From: Candidatus Binataceae bacterium
Lineage (GTDB): Bacteria > Desulfobacterota > Binatia > Binatales > Binataceae
DNA: 64,000 bases
NCBI GenBank assembly: GCA_030041155.1
Contig: JASHOJ010000078.1
Span: 1 to 64,000 of the forward strand
Direction of reading: 5' to 3'
Below the pieces are notes generated by a model, which saw nothing but the letters and a program-made list of their open reading frames with translations, ran no database searches and had not been told where the DNA came from. Position numbers and translations under genes: made by a program. Shown here in pieces: positions 18,626-34,882 of the stretch. Each line of letters begins with the position of its first letter. The first letter of the stretch is position 1.

Positions 18626-20311
18626 TTGAAATCGAAAACTGAATTGATCACGCGCCGGAAGTTCCTGCGCGATACCGCGCTGGCCGGCGCCGCGGCGATT
18701 GCCACCGGCGCAAGCCTGACAATTTATCCCGGGCACGTCTTCTCACAATCCGTCTTTCCTAAATCCGTTCTGCCGCAGCCTGTTTTCCGCTCGATGCTCA
18801 ATGCGAACAAGCTGGCGCGATTCGTCGATCCGCTGCCCATTCCACCTCGCGCCAGAAGCAAGGGATCGCGACCCAGTCCGCAAAACCCTTCTACCCGCCT
18901 GCCGTACTATCGGCTCGAGATGCGCGAGTTCCAAACCCGGCTTCACCGCGATCTGAAGCCCACGCGCCAATGGGGCTTCGAAGGCGTTGCGCCCGGTCCG
19001 ATTTTCGAAGTGCAAGGCGGACAGGAAATCCTGGTCGAATGGGTCAACCGCCTGCCCGCCGTTCACTTTCTGCCAATCGATCACTCGATCGCGGGCGCAG
19101 AAGCGAAGACACCCAGCGTCCGCACGGTCGTGCATCTGCACGGCGCTAAAACGCCGCCGGCGAGCGACGGCTTTCCGGAAGACTGGTTCCAGCCCGGAGC
19201 GTCGGCGCTCTGTCATTATCCAAATCAACAGGACGCCGCGATGCTCTGGTATCACGACCACGCGATGGGGATTAATCGCCTCAACATCTATGCGGGATTG
19301 GTTGGAGCGTACGTGATTCGGGACGACGTGGAAACGGCGCTCAAGCTTCCCGCCGGCCCTTACGAAATTCCGCTGGTGATCTACGATCGATCCTTCGACC
19401 CGCAGGGGGCGCTCTATTACCCGGTCTCCGGCAAACCCGGCCATCCGTGGGTGTCCGAATTTTATGGCGATGCGATGCTCGTCAACGGCAAGGTGTTTCC
19501 CTATCTGGAAGTCGAGCCGCGCAAGTATCGCTTCCGAGTCCTGAATGCGGCCAACGCCCGCGACTTCAACCTGACGCTTTCAAAAAGCCTGCCGATTTAT
19601 CAGATCGGAACCGATTTGGGCTTGTTGCCGGCGCCGGTGCCCATCAAAAATCTGGAGCTGTTTCCCGGCGAGCGCGCCGACTTGATCGTCGATTTCGCGG
19701 GCAATTCGGGCCACTCAATCGTGCTTAAAGACGAAAGCATCGAGGTGATGCAGTTTCGCGTCGGCCACGGTTCTGCCGGCAAAGACTTTTCTCTGCCCGC
19801 GACGCTTCGCCCGGTCACCAAATTGCGTGAGACCGACGCCGTCAAGAGCCGAGAGCTGACGCTGGTTGAGTACAACACATTTGGCGGCAGTTCGTTGGTG
19901 ATGCTGTTGAACGATACCCATTGGCATATGCCAATTACCGAGAAGCCGGTGCTCAATTCCGTCGAAATCTGGAACTTGATCAATCTGACCGAGGATGCGC
20001 ACCCGATTCATCTGCATCTGGTGCGCATGCAGATTCTCGATCGCCGACCCTTCGATCAGTTCGCCTTCACCATGCACCACAAGCTTCGCTTTCTCGGTCC
20101 TCCAATTCCGCCCGCGCCCAACGAAGCGGGATGGAAAGATACCGTTCGATGCGAATCGGGAATGGTGACGCGCATTATCGCGCGGTTCGAAGGCTACCCC
20201 GGCCGCTACGTCTGGCACTGCCATATTCTAGAGCACGAGGATAACGAGATGATGCGCCCGTACGAAGTGATTACTCCGCAGCAGGCCGCTCGCGAACTTG
20301 CCTCACGCTGA
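18626..20311 (+). CDS. Multicopper oxidase, CotA/bilirubin-oxidase type, Tat-exported (561 aa)
   Basis: Three-cupredoxin laccase-like enzyme oxidising phenols, metals or bilirubin-like compounds with O2. The Tat motif TRRKFLRD and hydrophobic AGAAAIATGASL make a signal of about 30-40 residues. The four copper motifs are VHLHGAK, WYHDHAMGINRLN, HPIHLHLVRMQ and WHCHILEHEDNEMM; the last contains the T1 Cys and axial Met. The only workable starts in frame are TTG 18626 or TTG 18644, as an ATG at 18613 is in another frame. A seven-base inverted repeat follows the stop directly. Export as a folded copper protein to the periplasm is expected. Confidence 0.92.
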   Translation: MKSKTELITRRKFLRDTALAGAAAIATGASLTIYPGHVFSQSVFPKSVLPQPVFRSMLNANKLARFVDPLPIPPRARSKGSRPSPQNPSTRLPYYRLEMREFQTRLHRDLKPTRQWGFEGVAPGPIFEVQGGQEILVEWVNRLPAVHFLPIDHSIAGAEAKTPSVRTVVHLHGAKTPPASDGFPEDWFQPGASALCHYPNQQDAAMLWYHDHAMGINRLNIYAGLVGAYVIRDDVETALKLPAGPYEIPLVIYDRSFDPQGALYYPVSGKPGHPWVSEFYGDAMLVNGKVFPYLEVEPRKYRFRVLNAANARDFNLTLSKSLPIYQIGTDLGLLPAPVPIKNLELFPGERADLIVDFAGNSGHSIVLKDESIEVMQFRVGHGSAGKDFSLPATLRPVTKLRETDAVKSRELTLVEYNTFGGSSLVMLLNDTHWHMPITEKPVLNSVEIWNLINLTEDAHPIHLHLVRMQILDRRPFDQFAFTMHHKLRFLGPPIPPAPNEAGWKDTVRCESGMVTRIIARFEGYPGRYVWHCHILEHEDNEMMRPYEVITPQQAARELASR

Positions 20312-20328
20312 TCCCGCTCAGGCGGGAT
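20311..20328 (+). terminator. Hairpin after multicopper oxidase, no T-run
   Basis: ATCCCGC (20311-20317) and GCGGGAT (20322-20328) form a seven-base stem with loop TCAG, starting in the stop codon of the preceding gene. No T-run follows, so it may stabilise the mRNA end or act with other factors rather than being a true intrinsic terminator. The next 255 bases up to 20584 hold no recognisable gene. Confidence 0.3.
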
Positions 20329-20583
20329 TATCGGCGGTAAAACGGCGCGATTTTGCGCAGGCCACGATTTGGATGTCGATCGATCGAAGGCCGAATCGCG
20401 GATGGCAAAAGTGCATGAATTTCAGGCACTATTCGCGTGGATCGGGCTGGGTCGGCTACCTAACGACTGTTAGGTTTTTTGCCAATTTTGTTCATGGCTG
20501 AACTGTTCAGCCTTACGCAATCAGCATCGATACGCTAAGGTGTGCGGCGATGAACCACGGCGAAAAAACAGGACAATTTTGAG

Positions 20584-21381
20584 ATGCCGCGACAAAGAGT
20601 CAACGACATAGAAATCTACTACGAAATTCACGGCGGCGGTCCGCAAACGCTGGTGATGATTCGCGGACTCGGGTCGAATTTGACCGCGTGGTACGAACAG
20701 ACGCCCGAGCTCGCGCGCCACTTCCGTGTGCTGGTGTTCGATAATCGCGGCGCGGGACGCACCGACAAACCCGATTCGCCGTACTCGATTCGGCAGATGG
20801 CGGATGACACGGCGGGTCTCGTCGCGGCGCTCGGCATTAAGCGCCTCGCGCTGCTCGGCATCTCGATGGGCGGGATGATCGCGCAGGAATTCGCGCTTAA
20901 GTATCAGCACATGCTCTCGTGCCTGATTCTGGGATGCACGATGTTCGGCGGCTCGGACGCGATTCGCGCCGCGCCGGAAGTTCTGGACGCGTTGCTTGCG
21001 GGCGATAAGGCAACCCCGGCGCAGCGGCGCGTGCAGCAGCGGTCGGTATTCACCGATCACGCAATCGATTCACGTCCCGAACTGATCGCAAATCACGAAC
21101 GAATCGCGATGCAGTATCCAATTCCTCCGTTCGCTTACCAGCGGCAGATTCAAGCGGTAATGGGATTCGACGCGAGTGCGCGACTGGGCGAAATTCATGT
21201 GCCTACGCTGGTGATGACCGGACGCGACGATATCTTGGTGCCGCCAGAGAACTCGCGCAAAATCGCCGAGCGCATCGCGGACGCCGAGTTGAAAGAGCTT
21301 CCCGGTGGGCATCTGTTCTTCACTGAATATCCCGCCGAATTTAACACTGCGGCGATCGCATTCATAAAGGCGCACCCGTAA
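20584..21381 (+). CDS. Alpha/beta hydrolase (265 aa)
   Basis: Compact serine hydrolase. The nucleophile elbow is G-I-S-M-G (LLGISMGGMIAQEF), the acid lies in TGRDDILVPPENS, and the base His in LPGGHLFFTEYP, so the triad is complete. RGLGSN holds the oxyanion hole and FDNRGAGRTDKPD is the usual loop. Length and pattern resemble 3-oxoadipate enol-lactonase/esterase-like enzymes. Its TAA stop overlaps the next ATG (TAATG at 21379-21383), so it is coupled to the M23 gene. The substrate is unknown. Confidence 0.88.
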   Translation: MPRQRVNDIEIYYEIHGGGPQTLVMIRGLGSNLTAWYEQTPELARHFRVLVFDNRGAGRTDKPDSPYSIRQMADDTAGLVAALGIKRLALLGISMGGMIAQEFALKYQHMLSCLILGCTMFGGSDAIRAAPEVLDALLAGDKATPAQRRVQQRSVFTDHAIDSRPELIANHERIAMQYPIPPFAYQRQIQAVMGFDASARLGEIHVPTLVMTGRDDILVPPENSRKIAERIADAELKELPGGHLFFTEYPAEFNTAAIAFIKAHP

Positions 21382-31676: not shown

Positions 31677-33101
31677 ATGGTTGCCCGGCTTTCCATTCCC
31701 AGAATCGTGGTCGGCGCGACGGGAAGCGGATGCGGCAAAACCACGGTTAGCCTCGCGATCGCGGCGGCGCTGCGGGCGCGCGGCATCAAGGTAGCCGCTT
31801 TCAAGTGCGGGCCCGATTATCTTGACCCGAGCTATCACGCGCGCGTGCTGGGACACACGTCGCAGAACCTCGACAGTTGGATGATGGGGCGCGAAGCGGT
31901 GCTCGCAACCGTCGCTCGCGCGGCGCGTGGATCCGATCTCGCGATCATTGAAGGAATGATGGGGCTCTTCGATGGAGCCACACCCGACAGCGACGAGGGA
32001 TCGACGGCCGAAATCGCAAAATGGCTCGATGCGCCGGTGCTACTGGTGCTCGATGCGTCGGGAATCGCGAGGACGGTTTCAGCGATCGCGGCCGGATTCG
32101 CGGGCTTCGATCGAGCGCTGAAAGTCGCAGGCCTCATCTGCAATCGCGTGGGCGGCAAGGGCCATCTCGACCTGCTGCGCGCGGCAAATTCGGAAACGCC
32201 GATCGTAGGCGGTCTTCCATTCGAAGCCGCGGTCGCATTTCCGGAGCGCCACCTGGGACTGATGCGAGCCGATGAAAAATCCGTTCCGGATGGGGTAATA
32301 GAACGGCTGGCGGACCTCGGCACACGATGGCTCGACCTGGACGCGGTTGTCGCGCTTGCGAAATCCGCGCCGCCGCTTGAGGTTCCGGAGCGGGAAGACG
32401 CAGGACCGCGCGCGACACCTCGATGCACAATCGCCGTTGCATATGACGACGCTTTTCATTTCTACTACGAAGATAATCTGCGCCGCCTCGAAGAATCCGG
32501 CGCTGAGCTGGTGCGATTCTCGCCGGCTTTCGATTCAGAGCCGCCGCGCGCCGACGGTATCTATATCGGCGGCGGCTATCCCGAAGCGCTCGCAAACGAG
32601 CTTTCATCGAACCGATCGATGCTCGCGGGAATACGAGAATTCGCGACGGGCGGGGGACCAATTTACGCCGAGTGCGGCGGGTTGATGTATCTGTGCGAAG
32701 GAATTCGCACAATTGATGGGAGGTTGTGGCCGATGGCCGGACTGATTGCGGGAATCGCTGTGATGCGCGATCGACTGCAGGCGATCGGATACGTGGAAGT
32801 TGAGACGCGCGCTCCGACATTAATCGGCGTGGCAGGACTTCGATTTCGAGGGCATCAGTTTCGCTACTCGGAGCTTCAGCAATCGAGCATTGAGGTCGAG
32901 CGCACCATAAAGGCCTATCACGTGGTGTCGCGATGGACCGGCGCAGCGTTTGAAGAGGGATTCGCTTTCCGCAATGTGCTTGGCTCCTACGTTCATGCGC
33001 ACTGGGCGTCGAACGGGTTGGCGGCAGAGGGCTTCGTTGAATCGTGCGCGCGATTTCACCAATCTGGACGTGAGGATCTTCGGGTCCGAAACTTTCGATG
33101 A
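31677..33101 (+). CDS. cobB: Cobyrinate a,c-diamide synthase (474 aa)
   Basis: ATP- and glutamine-dependent amidation of the a and c carboxylates of (hydrogeno)cobyrinic acid in B12 synthesis. N-terminal dethiobiotin-synthetase-like P-loop GATGSGCGKTT (near residues 13-23) and FKCGPDYLDPSYH; C-terminal class I glutamine amidotransferase domain with nucleophile Cys333 (YAECGGLMYLCEG) and the conserved GFAFRNVLGSYVHAHW near the end. Length is normal. It overlaps hemQ by ATGA and faces the methylmalonyl-CoA mutase operon, whose product needs B12. No other cobalamin gene and no B12 riboswitch was seen in the 46-base leader. Confidence 0.93.
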   Translation: MVARLSIPRIVVGATGSGCGKTTVSLAIAAALRARGIKVAAFKCGPDYLDPSYHARVLGHTSQNLDSWMMGREAVLATVARAARGSDLAIIEGMMGLFDGATPDSDEGSTAEIAKWLDAPVLLVLDASGIARTVSAIAAGFAGFDRALKVAGLICNRVGGKGHLDLLRAANSETPIVGGLPFEAAVAFPERHLGLMRADEKSVPDGVIERLADLGTRWLDLDAVVALAKSAPPLEVPEREDAGPRATPRCTIAVAYDDAFHFYYEDNLRRLEESGAELVRFSPAFDSEPPRADGIYIGGGYPEALANELSSNRSMLAGIREFATGGGPIYAECGGLMYLCEGIRTIDGRLWPMAGLIAGIAVMRDRLQAIGYVEVETRAPTLIGVAGLRFRGHQFRYSELQQSSIEVERTIKAYHVVSRWTGAAFEEGFAFRNVLGSYVHAHWASNGLAAEGFVESCARFHQSGREDLRVRNFR

Positions 33102-33949
33102 AAGCCGACCAGGAAAACTCGCTGTCAAAAAGCCGCGACGCGGTTCCGTCCGCGCCTCTTACGCTCGAAGGCTACGCGATTTTGCATCAGATGTTCCGGA
33201 TTCGGCGGACGAAGTGGCGCTCCGCGGATAGCAAGGAGCGCGCATCGATAATTGCCGAAGCGGAGGCGGCGCTTTCCGCGATGGCGCCTGGGAGCGACGG
33301 CGAATCGGCGGCATTCTCAGTCCTCGGCCACAAGAGCGACCTTCTGCTGATTCATTTTCGGCGCGGATTCGACGAGCTTGGCGAGGTGGAGCAAGAGATC
33401 GGAGCACTTGCGCTAAGCGATTTCCTTGAACCGGTGACATCATACCTTTCGATGATCGAGATTGGGCTCTACGAGGCGACGGTCGCGATGCACACGCGCC
33501 TTGATCGCGAAAACATTCGTCCTCGCACGCCCGAATGGAGCCAGGCAGTTGCGGCGGAGCTGTCGGCGCAGCGTCAAAAGCTGGGGACGCGGCTGTATCC
33601 GAAAATTCCCGCGCGGCGCTACTTGTGCTTCTATCCGATGGACAAGAAGCGCGAGGGCGACGACAACTGGTATCGCCTGCCAATCGAGGAACGCCGCCGG
33701 CTGATGCACGAGCATGGGATGGTTGGGCGGCGATTCGCGGGAGAGGTAACTCAGATAATTTCCGGATCGATCGGTTTCGACGACTTCGAGTGGGGAGTGG
33801 ATCTGTTCGCAGACGACCCGCTGGTGTTCAAGAAACTGATTTACGAGATGCGTTTCGACGAGGCGAGCGCAGGCTATGCGAAATTCGGCCCCTTCTATGT
33901 TGGAATCCGAACCGAGGCGCAGGAACTCGGCGAGCTGATGCCCGCCTGA
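33098..33949 (+). CDS. hemQ: Coproheme decarboxylase HemQ/ChdC (chlorite-dismutase family, 283 aa)
   Basis: Converts coproheme to protoheme in the coproporphyrin-dependent heme route. The second half is highly characteristic: RRYLCFYPMDKKREGDDNWY, with Tyr179 at the position of the catalytic YPM tyrosine of Bacillus-type enzymes, HEHGMVGRRF with the likely heme-ligand His206, then IISGSIGFDDFEWGVDLFADD and YEMRFDEASAGYAKFGPFYVG. No chlorite-dismutase-specific arginine pocket can be claimed from reading. ATG 33098 overlaps the cobB stop by four bases, so cobB and hemQ are translated together, linking two tetrapyrrole end-steps. Confidence 0.92.
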   Translation: MKADQENSLSKSRDAVPSAPLTLEGYAILHQMFRIRRTKWRSADSKERASIIAEAEAALSAMAPGSDGESAAFSVLGHKSDLLLIHFRRGFDELGEVEQEIGALALSDFLEPVTSYLSMIEIGLYEATVAMHTRLDRENIRPRTPEWSQAVAAELSAQRQKLGTRLYPKIPARRYLCFYPMDKKREGDDNWYRLPIEERRRLMHEHGMVGRRFAGEVTQIISGSIGFDDFEWGVDLFADDPLVFKKLIYEMRFDEASAGYAKFGPFYVGIRTEAQELGELMPA

Positions 33950-34015: not shown

Positions 34016-34246
34016 TTAACGCTTGCGCCGCGACTCGAGCTCATCCTCGACTTCATCGCGAATCGGAAAGCGCCCGGTCTTCGCCTTGGAAAAGATAAGG
34101 CTGCCGTCGGCGATTACGTCGAACTGGCCTGACTTTCCGGGAGTGATCTCCACGCTGTAACCGAAGCGATCCTTGATGGATGCGGCCAGACTGGCCGCCT
34201 GAGGCTTATAGCCTCAAGCCGAGCAATAGAGAATTTCAATAGCCAT
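34016..34246 (-). CDS. selW: SelW-like (Rdx family) selenoprotein with in-frame TGA as Sec codon (76 aa)
   Basis: Reading ATG 34246 on the minus strand gives MAIEILYCSA, then TGA (34214-34216) at residue 11, then GYKPQAASLAASIKDRFGYS and on to TAA at 34016-34018. The result is a C-S-A-U motif followed by GYKPQA, the SelW/Rdx signature (CxxU-GYK). The later part ITPGKSGQFDVIADGSLIFS then KAKTGRFPIRDEVEDELESR matches the family's PGxxGxFxVxxDGxxIxSKxxxGRFP. The frame would be senseless with TGA as stop: only ten residues before it, but a full conserved domain after it. A hairpin fitting a bacterial SECIS starts 19 bases from the TGA. It is the last gene of the run pccB-accC-BCCP-mcm-pdaD, 72 bases after pdaD. 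The role is a thioredoxin-fold thiol/selenol redox protein. Confidence 0.88.
34182..34198 (-). promoter_or_regulatory. Candidate bacterial SECIS hairpin
   Basis: In gene orientation GCGGCCA (bases 19-25 counted from the T of TGA) pairs perfectly with TGGCCGC (29-35), leaving a GTC apical loop at 26-28. An apical loop carrying G-U about 16-37 bases after UGA is what bacterial SelB recognises. A second, shorter stem TGAGGC-TATAA-GCCTCA includes the TGA itself and could compete or stack below it. Confidence 0.7.
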
Positions 34247-34318
34247 GATTTGAGGCTAGCGCTCTACTGCGATTCCCTCAACGATCGCCGGTGTGTGCGC
34301 ACCATCAGTGCGCGCGAG

Positions 34319-34882
34319 CTAGCGCCCGTTTGGCAGGTCCACAAAGACCGCGGCCGCAACCACAGAGGACCACAGGCCATCGCGATCACCTATCGCGGAC
34401 TGGGTGACATTGCGGGTGGTGATGATCTTATCGGAGAGGCGCCAGACGTCCTTACGCTCGTCGTAACTCGCGTTAGGATCGAAATCGACGCCCAAGATGG
34501 TCGCGAGCATCTGCGCGGCAAGATCCTCAGCATAATCGCCGGCTTTCTGATCCGTCTCGCCGAAGCTGTGATGCTCCGAAAGGTAACCGTACTGATCTGG
34601 GTTGGCGGGAATCGCGACGCCGACCGAAGCGGCAATGAGCCGATGGGGCTCGTTGATCGCGTTCTCGCTCATCACCGCATAGACAATCTGGCCGGGGCTC
34701 AGGTACTTGAGTCCTTCCTGCTGGCTGATAAGCCGGCAGCGCGGCGGAAAAATGGATTTTACGCGAACGAGATTGTATTCCGCGATTCCGGCGGAACGCA
34801 GCGACATCTCGAACGCGGTGAGTTTCTCGCGATGTTTGCCGACACCTTTGGTGAGAAATGCGGCCTTCGGAAGCGGTCCCAT
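34319..34882 (-). CDS. pdaD: Pyruvoyl-dependent arginine decarboxylase (187 aa)
   Basis: Makes agmatine from arginine for polyamine synthesis. The chain is made as a proenzyme and cleaves itself before a Ser that becomes the pyruvoyl group. Compared with the Methanocaldococcus enzyme (RISSIMPP), the site here reads RVKSIFPP, so Ser43 is kept but the preceding Ser is Lys. GQIVYAVMSENAINEPHRLIAASVGVAIP, read as two halves around SENA, is the conserved core. Length is normal. AGGAGAG lies about ten bases before ATG 34882. It sits between the mutase gene and the selenoprotein gene on one strand, an unusual neighbourhood. Confidence 0.88.
   Translation of the reverse strand: MGPLPKAAFLTKGVGKHREKLTAFEMSLRSAGIAEYNLVRVKSIFPPRCRLISQQEGLKYLSPGQIVYAVMSENAINEPHRLIAASVGVAIPANPDQYGYLSEHHSFGETDQKAGDYAEDLAAQMLATILGVDFDPNASYDERKDVWRLSDKIITTRNVTQSAIGDRDGLWSSVVAAAVFVDLPNGR

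Follow-up and report, generated by a model that had tools for sequence, protein, structure and literature searches.

A probable SelW-family selenoprotein gene of the Binataceae with a predicted leaderless mRNA

The SelW-like selenoproteins form a family that has been known since 2005, when 48 SelW-like genes were reported from Sargasso Sea data (PMC1088965), with ten selenocysteine (Sec) members being listed in 2006 (PMC1794560), and it has since been studied in many bacteria. Its members, represented by the models TIGR02174, NF041051 and PF10262, are small CXXU proteins with an Rdx thioredoxin-like fold, and their genes carry a bacterial SECIS (bSECIS) element immediately 3' of the UGA. Annotation is known to overlook SelW genes (PMC4607533), as happened with the small, UGA-encoded SelW of Campylobacter jejuni found on CJnc60, for which translation past the UGA was demonstrated by Ribo-seq and proteomics (PMC11955535). 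A separate body of work describes leaderless bacterial genes, which show a TANNNT motif approximately 12 bp upstream of the start codon and no Shine-Dalgarno (SD) sequence, in ordinary genes from groups that include Actinobacteria and Deinococcus-Thermus (PMC3160421).

The selW gene described here was found in a window of 64,000 nucleotides (contig JASHOJ010000078.1, positions 1 to 64,000) belonging to a metagenome-assembled genome (MAG) of Candidatus Binataceae, which amounts to 4.5 Mb in 335 contigs, being fragmented, and is 94% complete. It is alike to the described SelW-like genes in size, CXXU motif, fold and bSECIS placement, and differs from them in its Binatota/Binataceae host and in its predicted leaderless mRNA. 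Like the C. jejuni gene it is small and UGA-encoded, but the evidence for it is comparative, whereas passage of the UGA in C. jejuni was shown by Ribo-seq and proteomics. A literature search found no published selenoprotein study on Binatota or Binataceae, and in the open-licence papers searched no report of a leaderless bacterial selenoprotein was found. The novelty of the locus is its predicted leaderless mRNA, which together with clean natural deletions raises the case above routine.

The gene lies on the minus strand (window 34016..34246) and comprises 76 codons and a TAA (codon 77), with a product of sequence MAIEILYCSAUGYKPQAASLAASIKDRFGYSVEITPGKSGQFDVIADGSLIFSKAKTGRFPIRDEVEDELESRRKR. 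The initial annotation had proposed an in-frame TGA at codon 11 of an Rdx/SelW domain continuing to this TAA, and this was borne out, with the Pfam model PF10262 (Rdx) spanning the TGA uninterrupted (E = 1.4e-17, 64.1 bits against a cut-off of 22.6). The NCBIfam model TIGR02174 (SelT/SelW/SelH) also matched the product above its cut-off (54.4 bits against 34.2), while the best match by E-value (4.9e-23) was to a Campylobacter-named NCBIfam model, slightly below that model's own cut-off. The redox motif C8-S-A-U11 is located at 34214..34225 (minus strand), with the UGA Sec codon occupying 34216-34214. An AlphaFold model of the protein (pLDDT 93.9) shows a strand at residues 3-7 and a helix at residues 14-28, and its top matches among PDB structures were the SelW-related 2fa8, 2ojl, 2oka and 2p0g (TM 0.87-0.91), with mouse SelW ranking lower. 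In this model the CXXU motif sits in the loop leading from the first strand to the first helix, which is the position of the thioredoxin active site. A redox role for the protein is inferred from the family (PMC1088965). The named organisms among the relatives of selW are Candidatus Binataceae and Candidatus Binatus MAGs, several of which are filed as 'Deltaproteobacteria'. It should also be noted that many orthologues possess a C-terminal extension with a conserved end motif resembling R-x-L-x-K-L/F-R-N, which is absent from the window protein.

Within the Binataceae, selW was present in 37 of 41 genomes, and each of the 37 genes contains a single in-frame stop codon, always TGA, with no Cys form among them. 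The TGA occupied the same aligned codon in all 30 orthologues that were read out. Outside the family, SelW often has Sec and in some cases Cys; the comparison with Cys homologues suggested by the initial annotation returned Cys only from other lineages. In close relatives the frame stays open past the TGA, where frame decay would have spoken against the gene, and a close-relative comparison of the codons past the hairpin gave a pN/pS of approximately 0.40, indicating purifying selection; the portion of selW beyond the TGA is therefore translated and selected. Some Sec SelW genes from outside the Binataceae (three loci) contain a TAG or TAA in frame in addition to the TGA, and these are possibly decaying copies, errors or matches overrunning the gene end.

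It had been proposed from the window alone that the host makes selenocysteine, and its gene content indicates that it does, with selA, selB, selD and a tRNA-Sec all present in the genome. SelB is encoded on contig C275 (356.6 bits against a cut-off of 242), and is followed on one strand by the gene for SelD (378.5 bits; L081, 5546-8630). SelA scores above its cut-off even though its gene is cut by a contig end. The tRNA-Sec scored 69 bits and its anticodon was identified as UCA by ARAGORN, while matches to the tRNA-Sec model of approximately 40-50 bits were assigned to serine tRNAs, given that the genome's 49-bit match is a tRNA-Ser according to ARAGORN.

Downstream of the UGA lies the hairpin GCGGCCA-GTC-TGGCCGC (34198-34182, minus strand). 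The perfect 7-bp stem with a GTC loop noted in the initial annotation is present, but it begins 15 bases past the last base of the TGA and not 19 as stated there. Its minimum free energy (MFE) was -12.0 kcal/mol, compared with -4.7 +/- 2.1 for shuffled sequences (z = -3.4). The published bSECIS model calls for a loop of 3-9 nt, a stem of 4-16 bp, a G within the first two loop positions, a distance of 16-37 nt between UGA and loop and an MFE of -7.5 or below (PMC13188914). The selW hairpin falls within all of these limits, having a 3-nt GUC loop with the G first, 7 bp, a gap of 22 bases from the TGA to the apical loop and the energy given above, and the suggestion of a bSECIS at this position thus holds. 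A scan of the region with Rfam returned chance-level matches alone, far under the gathering scores. A second 7-bp hairpin, TGAGGCT-ATA-AGCCTCA (34216-34200, minus strand), contains the UGA and lies directly 5' of the SECIS hairpin, the two together giving -23.2 kcal/mol. Something similar was seen in two orthologues only, and this second hairpin is probably incidental.

Conservation of the SECIS hairpin was examined at two levels. Pair counts within the Binataceae failed to beat shuffles (96/500), and are uninformative because the stem is nearly invariant within the family. A phylum-wide set of 25 sequences, including 16 added Sec SelW genes of other families, was 96.7% paired over its cells, with double-sided changes in 16 cells against 4.1 in shuffles and a covariation score matched by none of 500 shuffles. 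These shuffles leave sequence relatedness uncorrected; controls in which the pairing partner was slid retain relatedness, and in these the covariation signal was abolished. Codon usage across the hairpin was also distinctive. The codon for Ser19, which holds the loop G, was AGT in all 28 Ser-bearing sequences, although AGT accounts for only 5.1% of the Ser codons used by the window's genes, while Ser53 of the same gene used AGT in none of 30. In the stem, Ala18 was GCC in 19/19 and Ala21 was GCC in 27/30, with the codon for Ala22, whose third base falls outside the stem, being free. The hairpin RNA forces codon choice here, including the rare Ser codon AGT. Cys homologues carry different residues at the AASLAAS site of the Sec forms, a difference suggesting that the protein sequence of SelW has also been shaped by the RNA signal.

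Upstream of selW on the same strand is pdaD, encoding a pyruvoyl-dependent arginine decarboxylase (34319..34882, minus strand; PF01862, 3.5e-57), with a gap of 72 bp between the two genes, an adjacency that is kept in most Binataceae loci. Downstream is a convergent chlorite dismutase/HemQ-like gene (33098..33949, plus strand; PF06778, 1.4e-58). The gene order MCM, pdaD, selW and convergent chlorite dismutase/HemQ-like gene was likewise kept in most loci. Within the gap, a −35 element (TTGAGG, 34276..34281, minus strand) and a −10 element (TAGCCT, 34253..34258, minus strand) were identified, separated by a 17-nt spacer, with the −10 element lying 6 nt before the ATG and transcription being predicted to begin on the A of this ATG (34246). 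The promoter lies just outside the coordinates covered by the initial annotation, which mentioned neither a leaderless promoter, nor conserved synteny, nor natural deletions.

The arrangement TTGNNN-N16/17-TANNNT, located 6-7 bases 5' of the ATG, was found in 25 of 35 Binataceae orthologues, window selW included, where dinucleotide shuffles expect 0.06; the −10 element alone was present in 26 of the 35 (0.8 expected). None of the 25 promoter-bearing orthologues has an SD sequence. Nine of the 35 lack the −10 element, most of which carry an SD or closely follow pdaD, and a tenth lacks the −35. Control genes behaved differently: pdaD from the same genomes showed the promoter geometry in 0/25 and an SD in 21/25, and selB showed both elements in 0/19. 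Among 86 large ORFs in the stretches of the genome, both elements were found at a near-start ATG or GTG in none, and a looser scan which also allowed TTG starts gave 1/55. The selB gene of the host has a −10-like TATGCT 7 nt before an ATG. With the first T of its −10 lying 12-13 bp before the start codon and no SD, selW matches the signature of leaderless genes (PMC3160421), sharing both the −10 placement and the lack of an SD with them, although a selenoprotein example was not found among those genes. The conserved promoter geometry predicts that the Binataceae selW mRNA is probably leaderless and starts at the AUG. In such a transcript the UGA would fall at bases 31-33, with the SECIS following at bases 49-65. 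Most Sec SelW genes read from related lineages outside the Binataceae have an SD, and the predicted leaderless state is on this comparison derived within the Binataceae.

The four Binataceae genomes in which selW is missing are G026, G032, G003 and G011. Two of these, G026 and G032, share a genus with the selW-bearing G015 and G034, and both were found to be without selA, without selB above the cut-off and without tRNA-Sec (serine-like scores only). On the 3' flank of pdaD in G026 and G032, the sequence that precedes the −35 is fused directly to the sequence past the selW stop, a junction indicating that selW and its promoter were lost as a single unit by clean deletion, with the Sec machinery that the gene needs gone too. 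A second pdaD-like gene (75-76% identical) occurs in both of these species. Genome G003 has the Sec machinery and no selW; selW is therefore not essential to Sec use. Genome G011 is without both selW and pdaD, and this may be an assembly gap.

Taken at face value under code 11, the TGA is a stop, and the locus could be a decayed gene, or could encode a peptide of 10 residues and/or a protein initiated past the TGA. This is extremely improbable given the family-wide conservation of the frame after the TGA with its pN/pS of approximately 0.40, the single TGA in 37/37 genes with Cys in none, and the joint loss of selW and Sec machinery in G026 and G032; a start past the TGA would moreover cost the protein its CXXU motif and the first strand of the AlphaFold model. 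An open frame does not by itself name the residue inserted, and with Cys forms in other lineages the TGA might be read as Cys or Trp through general reassignment or near-cognate read-through. Such a reading can scarcely be credited in a genome with tRNA-Sec(tca), selA, selB and selD, in which the other in-frame TGAs observed coincide with the established Sec sites of SelD and FdhA, and with a conserved SECIS hairpin at the canonical distance. The hairpin itself lies entirely inside coding sequence, and could be seen as a by-product of a conserved AASLAAS peptide with no role as an RNA signal, as the Binataceae-only pair counts would allow. This is very unlikely, for synonymous choice is frozen precisely in the stem and loop and relaxed at Ala22, the phylum-wide pairs covary, and AASLAAS is not kept in Cys homologues. 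For these reasons all three readings were rejected. Comparative genomics documents the UGA and its open frame, the hairpin, the Sec machinery and the reliance of selW on that machinery, and selW is very probably a genuine selenoprotein gene whose UGA, to judge from the family, would be read as Sec.

The form of the transcript is a separate matter. A true selenoprotein could also be made from a pdaD-selW read-through mRNA or one with a short leader, the promoter match then being a secondary or internal start. The same-strand pdaD 72 bp upstream, with its conserved adjacency, would suit this explanation, as would the approximately ten orthologues without the full promoter, several of which have an SD. 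It is nonetheless judged rather unlikely, since the −35/−10 geometry recurs in 25/35 orthologues where 0.06 would be expected, none of these 25 has an SD, all 25 adjacent pdaD genes are without the geometry, and the promoter was removed together with selW by the deletion in G026 and G032.

Under the favoured explanation of a leaderless selenoprotein mRNA, selW would have a sigma-70-type promoter of its own (TTGAGG-N17-TAGCCT), and the ribosome would initiate directly at the 5' AUG. At codon 11, Sec-tRNA(UCA) would then be brought to the UGA by SelB, itself bound to the hairpin whose loop lies 22 nt further on, and translation would continue to the TAA, giving a CXXU redox protein of 76 residues with a thioredoxin fold. 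Should the leaderless start be true, AUG, UGA and SECIS all fall within 65 bases of the 5' end, making this a minimal natural system of approximately 65 bases for asking whether Sec recoding operates on leaderless mRNAs, and SelB-dependent recoding must work on a ribosome that initiated without an SD and has so far linked no more than ten residues. The Sec users are extended by this locus to the Binatota, a soil phylum without known isolates, with a gain of 37 SelW genes which standard-code gene callers would cut or drop. The family also offers natural experiments in the form of two species lacking the Sec machinery in which selW was cleanly lost as well.

The search for selenoproteins in the host was made through selected families and the resulting list is partial. 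Besides SelW, two further selenoproteins are probable. SelD has an in-frame TGA (U40 of the stretch read), Sec-containing SelD being well known, with 38 listed in PMC1794560. The alpha subunit of a formate dehydrogenase-N-like enzyme (FdhA; contig C228, approximately 20042-20794, minus strand) likewise contains a TGA in frame (U142 in the portion read). Downstream of the FdhA TGA is a hairpin with the apex CC-GGUCU-GG, while that of selW has CC-AGUCU-GG, with C-GGUCU-GG or C-GGUUU-GG in two orthologues. One SelB could plausibly read both the SelW and the FdhA hairpins.
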